This document shows positions 31,379-32,865 of a stretch of 54,209 bases of DNA, in pieces. The stretch's first letter is position 1. Each line of letters opens with the position of its first letter. The stretch is from Bacteroidales bacterium (lineage in GTDB: Bacteria > Bacteroidota > Bacteroidia > Bacteroidales > GWF2-38-335): assembly GCA_016936815.1 (NCBI GenBank), contig JAFGXD010000027.1, forward strand, positions 1 through 54,209, read 5' to 3'. The notes under the pieces were generated by a model. It was not told where the DNA came from. It searched no databases and saw only the letters and a list, made by a program, of their open reading frames with translations. A program made the position numbers and the translations under genes.

Positions 31379-31431
31379 AACTGCCTGAATAATCGTATTG
31401 TAAAAAATGCGGTTTTTCAGGCAGTTTTTTT
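31379..31431 (+). terminator. Terminator of rho
   Basis: Arms AACTGCCTGA (31379-31388) and TCAGGCAGTT (31417-31426) pair over 10 bp around a 28-base loop, followed by seven T to 31431. The T run overlaps the stop codon of the convergent radical SAM gene. Confidence 0.8.
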
Positions 31432-32497
31432 ATTCCGGAATTACATAACAAAATCCGGGGCTTTTTCTTTCAAGATTCCATAAATGAATTGAACCTCCAT
31501 TACAAGATTTAACATGTTTACAACCGGCACAATCGGTGTTTTTTAGCCACTCTCTTTTCCTGAATTTTTCAAACCCGTTCTGCCATAAGTTTGCCAAATT
31601 GTCTTCCAAAATATTTCCTTCATAAAAACTTGGATGATTGTTTGTGCAGCCGGTAATTGTGCCATCTGCTAAAATTGACGCAATATTAATTCCTGCCCTG
31701 CAAAAAAATGGCAAGTCCCTAACTTTCTTATCAGTATTATATGGTAACCATCCCTCGCAACTTAAATTTATATTTAATCCTTTCTCCTTAAACCTTGGCT
31801 TGTTTACTTTTATCCAGTTTACCATTTGCGAGGTTTGCTCGAAACTCAGTAACAGTTTGTTGTTGTTTTCTGCCCTTCCCGAAGGAAAAATTCTGAAAAG
31901 CCGCCACGACTCCATTTTCTTTTCAACCAACAAATTACCTATTTCATTAAGTTGGTTTAAATTATCAGGATAAACGCAAGTAACAGCATCTTTAAATTTT
32001 ATTGATGAATTTCCAAGCGCATCTAAAGCAACAAGTAATTTATTATAAGCAATTGGGGAATTTCTAAGTTTATTATGACTATATTCCAAACCATCGACGC
32101 TAATTGTTAAAGCAGAAATACCGGCCAGTTCGAGATTAGTCATTCTTTCAGAATTAAGCAAAATTCCGTTTGTAACCATAGCCCAATTCATTCCCTTGGA
32201 TTTAATATGATTGCCTATTTTAAACAAATCCTTATGCAAAAGAGGCTCTCCGCCTGTAATAACAAAAGTTATTTTCTCTGAAATATTTTCGTAAACAAAG
32301 TCAATAATTTTTAACCAACTGTCTGTTGTTAACTCAGATAATCCTGTTTCACTTTTACAGTCGGAACCGCAATGCAAACAATTTAAATTGCATCTACGTG
32401 TTATTTCTAAAAATAAATAGTTTAGGGGATGATTTTCGGCCTCTTTCTTTTTGTGCCAATTATGTAATATGGTTTTAATACTATCTGAAATGCCCAC
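31430..32497 (-). CDS. Radical SAM/SPASM enzyme of the rSAM/lipoprotein system
   Basis: The [4Fe-4S] cluster motif CxxxCxxC is at Cys36, Cys40 and Cys43, followed by 'TGGEPLLH'. The C-terminus has a SPASM domain: Cys266-x12-Gly-x4-Cys284, then a Cys-x2-Cys-x5-Cys group ('CAGCKHVKSC') and a last Cys in 'GFCYV'. The fourth position of the usual CxxCx5Cx3C is Ser. SPASM enzymes modify peptides or proteins through auxiliary clusters. The start is GTG, two bases after the stop of a small lipoprotein gene, matching the family known as the rSAM/lipoprotein system of Bacteroidota. The reaction and substrate are not known; the lipoprotein itself is the obvious candidate. Confidence 0.88.
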   Translation of the reverse strand: MGISDSIKTILHNWHKKKEAENHPLNYLFLEITRRCNLNCLHCGSDCKSETGLSELTTDSWLKIIDFVYENISEKITFVITGGEPLLHKDLFKIGNHIKSKGMNWAMVTNGILLNSERMTNLELAGISALTISVDGLEYSHNKLRNSPIAYNKLLVALDALGNSSIKFKDAVTCVYPDNLNQLNEIGNLLVEKKMESWRLFRIFPSGRAENNNKLLLSFEQTSQMVNWIKVNKPRFKEKGLNINLSCEGWLPYNTDKKVRDLPFFCRAGINIASILADGTITGCTNNHPSFYEGNILEDNLANLWQNGFEKFRKREWLKNTDCAGCKHVKSCNGGSIHLWNLERKSPGFCYVIPE

Positions 32498-32499
32498 AG

Positions 32500-32865
32500 C
32501 TAATCCATTTCTTCCATAATAATATCTCCATTCAAAGTATCAATATCTACCTCTTTTGTCTTGAAATACCCTAAATTAGCCGTGCTATCGTTGTCAGAAA
32601 TTTTCAATTTGTATTTGTTTGATTGACTATCCTCAACAATTTGAATTTCGAAGCCTCCTTCATCATCAGTAATAACGGTCTGTTGAGGATTATTGTTTTC
32701 GAAAGGCTCCACTTTTAAACCCGGAATTGGCTCACCATCGGGGTTTGTTGTCTTCATGTATTTGTAATATGTGTAATTAGCCGGAGCGCCATAACAGGCA
32801 GCTAGAATCATTGAGAATGAGCCTGTTAATATCCATGCAATGGATTTTCTAAAAAATCTGTACAT
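32500..32865 (-). CDS. Small lipoprotein paired with the radical SAM enzyme
   Basis: The 121-residue product has an N-terminal 'MYRFFRK', a hydrophobic helix and the lipobox 'ILAAC' with Cys24, then 'YGAPANYTYYKYM'. Residues about 45-115 form a beta-sandwich like the regulatory domain of carboxypeptidases ('GEPIPGLKV', 'TDDEGGFEIQ'). The open frame extends 23 codons further upstream, but those residues are not signal-like, so ATG 32865 is chosen. Arrangement and sequence match the putative lipoprotein of the rSAM/lipoprotein system. It should sit on the outer face of a membrane. Asn, Asp and Tyr are frequent, but no modification site can be named. Confidence 0.8.
   Translation of the reverse strand: MYRFFRKSIAWILTGSFSMILAACYGAPANYTYYKYMKTTNPDGEPIPGLKVEPFENNNPQQTVITDDEGGFEIQIVEDSQSNKYKLKISDNDSTANLGYFKTKEVDIDTLNGDIIMEEMD

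Follow-up and report, generated by a model that had tools for sequence, protein, structure and literature searches.

The window, by which we mean the whole stretch of 54,209 nucleotides that was analysed, carries a lipoprotein gene followed by a gene for a radical SAM/SPASM enzyme (Table 1). The lipoprotein reads from an ATG at 32865 to a stop codon at 32500-32502, two bases from the GTG of the enzyme, so that the layout given in the initial annotation, a radical SAM enzyme and a 121-residue lipoprotein separated by two bases, is confirmed with both open reading frames in place. The inverted repeat beyond the enzyme gene is strong, its arms (31379-31399 and 31406-31426) being 86% complementary. 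A search for RNA families gave no match at gathering score, and the promoter scan gave a signal at shuffle level.

Table 1. Features of the enzyme/lipoprotein locus in the window.
Feature	Coordinates	Strand	Description
Radical SAM/SPASM enzyme	31430..32497	-	GTG start, 355 aa; divergent TIGR04133-type clade
Partner lipoprotein	32500..32865	-	121 aa, TIGR04134-like, TGSFS-type signal peptide, beta-strand-rich tail
Candidate modification site	32776..32802	-	Lipobox Cys then Tyr-Gly-Ala-Pro; residues 22-30, AACYGAPAN
Inverted repeat, probable terminator	31379..31426		Between rho and the radical SAM gene; T run on the + strand side

In profile searches against NCBIfam, where TIGR04133 and TIGR04134 are labelled hypothetical equivalogs, TIGR04133 was the best-scoring family for the enzyme with 336.9 bits, 88 bits short of the curated cut-off of 425, and the lipoprotein barely exceeded that of TIGR04134 (40.3 bits, cut-off 39.8). 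The earlier assignment to this pair of families thus stands insofar as they are the nearest ones for both proteins and the lipoprotein just passes, but the enzyme lies under its cut-off and belongs to a separate clade of seven members, of which the other six score 332.8-371.4 bits against TIGR04133. As in the canonical pairs, the lipoprotein immediately precedes the enzyme, the Cys set is invariant and the substrate carries X-Tyr-Gly-x-Pro; besides score and clade, the window differs from them in that X-Tyr-Gly (XYG) starts at the lipobox Cys. The runner-up family of the enzyme was AhbD (127.8 bits), AhbD and NirJ coming next after TIGR04133, and TIGR04103 reached 98.3 bits. Pfam recognised Radical_SAM (8e-19) and SPASM (7.5e-7) in the enzyme, and CarboxypepD_reg in the lipoprotein below threshold (23.8 bits, cut-off 32.3). 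The structure model of the lipoprotein was poor (pLDDT 46.5) and that of the enzyme unusable in its SPASM half (residues 247-355 below 50); among the Foldseek matches shown, most were radical SAM enzymes of many kinds, giving no functional pointer.

The cysteines of the enzyme comprise Cys36/40/43, Cys266-x12-Gly279-x4-Cys284, Cys323/326/332 and Cys350. All those named earlier, including the CxxCx5C motif, are present, and they are invariant in 39/39 aligned TIGR04133-type proteins, the alignment (L054 left out) also covering TIGR04103, AhbD-like, NirJ, MftC, PqqE and TIGR04053 enzymes. It had also been remarked that the fourth Cys of CxxCx5Cx3C is missing; this is real, but family-wide (absent in 39/39 TIGR04133 proteins, present in 10/10 of TIGR04103) and not special to the window enzyme. 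Because the loss is family-wide and three other cysteines, Cys47 (39/39), Cys174 (38/39) and Cys247 (39/39), are conserved in TIGR04133 and found in none of the other aligned rows, the open site in the auxiliary cluster that had been suggested is not implied.

At E <= 1e-60, TIGR04133 matched in 30 of the 119 genomes surveyed from the order, at 37 places. TIGR04134 (E <= 1e-8) was detected in 14 genomes, all of them among the 30, and in none of the 89 TIGR04133-negative genomes; this co-occurrence, which the initial annotation had proposed as a check, is not due to chance. In a sample of 296 genomes of the phylum, the enzyme was found at the same threshold only in the window's genome and in one other, and it was also present in plasmid records of Parabacteroides distasonis, Phocaeicola massiliensis and Treponema saccharophilum. 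The 37 places, the three plasmid records and one locus from the phylum sample make up the 41 enzyme loci considered below. The Treponema plasmid pTS1 (L066) holds a complete enzyme/lipoprotein pair outside the phylum, adjoining an Mpi-family recombinase gene, and this pair was likely acquired by horizontal transfer. A search for viral occurrences gave 13 pattern matches, none of them confirmed.

The genome of the window (3.58 Mb, in which the window is contig C145) encodes a second, canonical TIGR04133 enzyme (541 bits) on contig C169. This enzyme is preceded by three small secreted proteins with the sites KYGGPTADY, KYGVPVNY plus KYGAVREDY, and AYGCPPNF, two of which were scanned and gave no TIGR04134 match. 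In addition, an orphan TIGR04134 lipoprotein with the site EYGCPHADY lies on contig C135 (L014:4848-5342), with no enzyme alongside in the 10.5 kb examined, and therefore its site would need to be modified in trans. In total, the genome holds two enzymes together with five XYG proteins, of which two resemble TIGR04134 and three do not.

A secreted protein with an XYG site, encoded on the same strand and either no more than about 1.3 kb upstream or immediately downstream, was found near 39 of the 41 TIGR04133-type enzymes, and in 35/41 loci the site reads X-Tyr-Gly-x-Pro (YGxP), the proline being absent from that position in L032, L046, L048 and L191. The two loci without such a partner are L052, which has only 96 bases of upstream sequence, and L054, a 222.7-bit outlier. 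Most partners lie upstream, those of L027, L032, L048 and L068 downstream. Their architectures are diverse, including beta-sandwiches, peptides of 50-70 residues, coiled coils and two proteins lacking a lipobox, and the presence of XYG is independent of protein architecture. The two without lipobox Cys, in L027 and L032, are larger secreted proteins encoded directly after the enzyme, and their signal peptides end in AQYG (IIAQYGAP, FAQYGSW). Coiled-coil-like lipoproteins occur in L026, L062 and L063, and the repeat units of L026 and L063 (KACLYGTPEV..., SACVYGSPEI...) give each of these proteins at least two XYGxP sites. The locus most closely related to that of the window (L045:3430-4021) has a 72-aa lipoprotein ORF with CYGSP, followed by a second lipoprotein ORF without YG.

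As a control, YG was counted in predicted lipoproteins from the same DNA. It is present in 32 of 33 located just upstream of an enzyme (26 as YGxP), the exception being the second lipoprotein ORF of L045, and in 2 of 14 others, both belonging to the same system. YGxP was also counted in the 135 remaining neighbouring ORFs, 43,040 residues in all: there are 14 occurrences, and within residues 15-110 the motif is found in four ORFs, each of them a partner protein. The earlier proposal that the lipoprotein is the natural target of the enzyme is supported.

It could be supposed that the lipoproteins use XYGxP as a signal for export or sorting, or in a structural role, and that the enzyme acts elsewhere, given that the motif often lies close after the lipobox, as known surface-export signals do. 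We consider this very unlikely, since the motif is also found at C-terminal ends of peptides, inside coiled-coil repeats and where no lipobox is present, is absent from the 12 lipoproteins of the same DNA that do not belong to the system, and has an X residue that tracks the enzyme clade. On this last point, CYG partners, with the lipobox Cys as X, accompany 6/6 window-clade enzymes with a known partner, 8/8 of a second clade and 2/2 in L048/L066, and the remaining 21 counted enzymes have another X (L030, with both CYG and KYG, and L052 are left out of these counts). The division into CYG and non-CYG requires a single change on the careful enzyme tree described below, against a mean of 12.2 and a minimum of 7 in 300 shuffles; the one-change result is obtained in 74% of bootstrap trees and the branch has a support of 37/97. 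Substrates with and without CYG split with the enzyme tree. In the window-type proteins, the signal peptide is conserved beyond hydrophobicity, with the pattern (T/S)G(S/T)...AACYGxP in 6/6, which would suit a role as leader.

The site table comprises 50 sites from 38 loci and was curated by eye; two further sites, LYGTP of L022 and EYGSP of L065, were lost to the script filter and are missing from it. X is C in 17 sites, K in 10, E in 7, M in 5, V in 4, A in 3, L in 2 and Q in 2; Tyr and Gly are constant in this list, which was itself assembled on the basis of that motif. One could also imagine a crosslinking enzyme of the sactipeptide, ranthipeptide or three-residue-cyclophane type, forming thioethers or cyclophanes at Tyr, at Cys or Pro, or at an aromatic residue further along. 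It would fit the many sites resembling YGxPxx(Y/F), the adjacent Cys in the window and the position of an ACGX-repeat peptide system (ACGX) as nearest neighbour in one tree, but is very improbable in view of the table. Cys is missing from the stretch X-3 to Y+11 in 24 sites, although sactipeptide and ranthipeptide maturases are expected to use a Cys thioether donor; Pro is missing in 7; x is Gly in 2; none of Y/F/W/H follows YG within 12 residues in 4; and in 4 the protein ends 5-6 residues past Gly. That two partners (L027, L032) have no lipobox at the site also speaks against it. The same table rules out, as universal chemistry, thioethers to Cys, linkage of Tyr to Pro, cyclophanes to residue x and links to a downstream aromatic residue. 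The general C-C, C-S or epimer chemistry first envisaged is accordingly narrowed, the table speaking against a universal C-S link or crosslink to Pro, residue x or a downstream aromatic, and the XYG site together with kinship to the nif11 spliceases pointing to tyramine excision.

This kinship was examined in three trees. The quick tree contained 65 enzymes, with 17 loci repeating others left out; the careful tree had 62 rows, leaving out L054, L168 and L165; and for a second careful tree of 50 rows the ACGX enzyme (L167) and 11 further rows were also omitted, for speed. Loci L169 (with two radical SAM enzymes), L170, L072, L073 and L003-L006 (the window's own genome) are in no tree, TIGR04103 is represented by nine of 80 loci plus the one from a Nostoc plasmid, outgroups are few, and PlpX itself is absent. 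In the quick tree, TIGR04133 had a support of 100, and a support of 99 was obtained for the clade that unites it with TIGR04103, GDL and four nif11-like rows. In the 62-row tree, the 39 TIGR04133-type rows were monophyletic (100/99), with the window clade inside (100/100), and TIGR04103, GDL and the nif11-like rows grouped together (100/91). Here the ACGX row, on an end branch of 3.11, was the sister of TIGR04133 (96/73), and because of this a joint TIGR04133/TIGR04103 clade without ACGX was not recovered. The joint group including ACGX was split at 100/97 from the AhbD-like (twice), NirJ, MftC, TIGR04053 and TIGR04347 rows. In the 50-row tree without ACGX, TIGR04133, TIGR04103, GDL and the nif11-like rows formed a joint clade (100/97). 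Therefore, the separation of the TIGR04133-TIGR04103 group from these other families is firm in this sampling, and the placement of TIGR04133 directly next to TIGR04103 with no family between, found in two of three trees, is not firm. HMM scores alone are ambiguous on kinship, TIGR04103 being the second-best family of the C169 enzyme (124.7 bits) and AhbD that of the window enzyme.

Conserved residues also distinguish these families, Gly44 (in CxHCGS) and His338 being present in 39/39 TIGR04133 and 10/10 TIGR04103 proteins and in none of the AhbD-like, NirJ, MftC, PqqE or TIGR04053 rows; Ser45 and Trp198 are common to TIGR04133, TIGR04103 and some other aligned rows. With AhbD and NirJ as its next HMM matches, the window protein might be taken for a haem or tetrapyrrole enzyme whose lipoprotein serves as cofactor carrier. 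This is highly improbable, given that the AhbD-like, NirJ, TIGR04053, TIGR04347 and MftC rows fall across a 100/97 branch in both careful trees, that the HCG following the SAM cluster is absent from those rival-family rows aligned, and that a signal peptide and XYG are the sole features common to the partner proteins.

The Nostoc TIGR04103 enzyme (853 bits, cut-off 725) belongs to the nif11-associated family that we take to be the same as IPR026482, the family of PlpX. A nif11 precursor ending in ALYGLPPELF lies before it, and the gene after it encodes a 71-aa protein in the position of PlpY. PlpX (WP_019503880.1, IPR026482) is described as acting with the RRE protein PlpY on nif11 or nitrile-hydratase-like precursors, in passages of PMC11002830. 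According to parts of PMC10533398, PlpXY excises tyramine (C8H9NO, -135.0757 Da) from XYG, its natural sites being MYG and LYG, and accepts an engineered GYG, no leader being needed; the tags derived from PlpA2 read IRP(L/G)YGLPI, i.e. YGxP, and among tags placed in FtsZ two GYGLP were accepted and both LYGLP tried were unmodified.

A small ORF of the leader-GG-core type with XYG was found in 55 of 80 TIGR04103 loci, all relatives of the Nostoc enzyme, and the filter used detected no XYG small ORF in the other 25; two proteins from the 80 loci (L076, L116) were scanned against NCBIfam. Among the 135 XYG sites, of which at least one resembles a chance ORF, 28 are YGxP and many others YGVV or YGVI, and the pentapeptides include LYGLP as well as KYGGP, AYGTP and CYGLP, which are like the lipoprotein sites. 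No convincing XYG precursor was seen near the nif11-like radical SAM enzymes L077-L082, one family in the phylum that falls inside the joint clade, and a DNA pattern for the PlpA2 core had no match in the genome contigs.

The window system shares with PlpX and TIGR04103 an X-Tyr-Gly site, partly as YGxP, and with TIGR04103 the residues Gly44 and His338; the two families group together in the quick tree and in the careful tree without ACGX, but not in the one that includes ACGX. It differs in several respects: PlpX-type precursors carry a nif11 or nitrile-hydratase leader, whereas the substrates here have a signal peptide instead; PlpX works with its RRE partner, whereas TIGR04133 enzymes have none conserved; the SPASM Cys set is altered; and identity of the window enzyme to TIGR04103 proteins is only 25-29%. 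In 22 loci searched for ORFs of at least 70 aa, no third component (RRE, transporter or protease) was conserved beside the enzyme, the one further group of related ORFs being confined to three loci. The GDL/DUF1843 systems (TIGR03913) have enzymes that are sisters of TIGR04103 in the trees, and their DUF1843 peptides (e.g. L067:4153-4866, L069:3028-3743), which unlike the lipoproteins have no signal peptide, contain X-Tyr near the N-terminus in 6/6 and X-Tyr-Gly in 3/6 cases. The TIGR03913 enzymes may be spliceases too, or relatives acting on Tyr.

Taking these data together, we propose that TIGR04133 enzymes are spliceases acting on lipoproteins and that the window pair is a splicease and its substrate, the enzyme splicing X-Tyr-Gly of the lipoprotein before export, a reading that we hold to be on balance probable, if only by a modest measure. 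In its favour are the XYG protein beside nearly all enzymes, the XYG sites of PlpXY and of TIGR04103 precursors, the residues Gly44 and His338, the tracking of CYG and non-CYG substrates, and kinship to the nif11 family in two of three trees. Counting against it are the lack of a conserved RRE gene among ORFs of at least 70 aa in 22 loci, the two LYGLP tags left unmodified in FtsZ, the altered SPASM cysteines, the low identity, AhbD as second HMM family, and the nif11-like loci and 25/80 TIGR04103 loci without an XYG precursor; the placement of ACGX also counts against it, and our confidence is slightly lower because that row is the sister of TIGR04133 in one tree. The enzyme might act on the same X-Tyr-Gly with another outcome: it could epimerise X, Tyr or Gly, oxidise Tyr or alter it by a decarboxylation-type reaction, or form a crosslink inside X-Tyr-Gly. 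SPASM enzymes catalyse many reactions, and such an outcome would agree with a Cys set unlike that of TIGR04103, the failure to find an RRE partner in the loci searched, a long branch to the remaining enzymes (1.1-1.4 changes per column) and the proximity, in one tree, of ACGX, which handles another kind of peptide. We nevertheless judge it rather unlikely, though far from negligible, because XYG with constant Tyr and Gly is the known splicease site, and because the joint clade includes TIGR04103 and GDL, whose substrates carry XYG or X-Tyr.

In the proposed splicing reaction, the enzyme would act on X-Tyr-Gly before export with the signal peptide as leader, and the tyramine part of a single Tyr would be cut from the backbone, leaving behind a reactive ketone, a ketoamide. 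The spliced protein would then be exported, lipidated and anchored, displaying the electrophilic ketoamide. At the C-Y-G site of the window, the thiol would still be free for lipidation; with the lipobox Cys as X in the window clade, the lipidated N-terminal residue itself would therefore be the homologated one. The reaction and the point at which it takes place, the leader function of the signal peptide and any role in protease inhibition or covalent capture are inferred.

Spliceotides are reported as protease inhibitors in parts of PMC11117315, and a passage of PMC10373908 likewise says that their products inhibit proteases; a review of February 2022 states, in the section concerned, that no naturally occurring spliceotide had yet been isolated (PMC8868522). 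If the splicing proposal holds, the partner proteins could be membrane-bound inhibitors whose specificity is set by X. By this analogy they might serve as anchored protease traps with X as a P1-like residue, which is conceivable but doubtful. With the paralogues for KYG, EYG, MYG and other sites included, the pair could, quite tentatively, belong to a Bacteroidota system for modifying proteins, by which covalent protease traps or capture groups with a specificity given by X would be presented on the envelope.

A search of one paper library returned no paper naming TIGR04133, TIGR04134, "radical SAM-associated putative lipoprotein", or splicease and lipoprotein together, and in the main text of a survey of Bacteroidales RiPPs (PMC10352776) the words "lipoprotein" and "splice" are absent. 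The priority of the idea that TIGR04133 enzymes are spliceases is uncertain, given a splicease survey from 2022. That survey, by Scott et al. (2022, Chem 8:2659), reportedly describes widespread ribosomal beta-amino acid peptides and proteins and may include the TIGR04133 family.

If the proposal is true, backbone splicing would not be limited to RiPPs of the nif11 type, but would also be used on anchored envelope proteins of Bacteroidota. It would take place in organisms whose records are named Parabacteroides and Phocaeicola and would have reached a Treponema replicon, and the TIGR04133/TIGR04134 pair would gain a testable chemistry.
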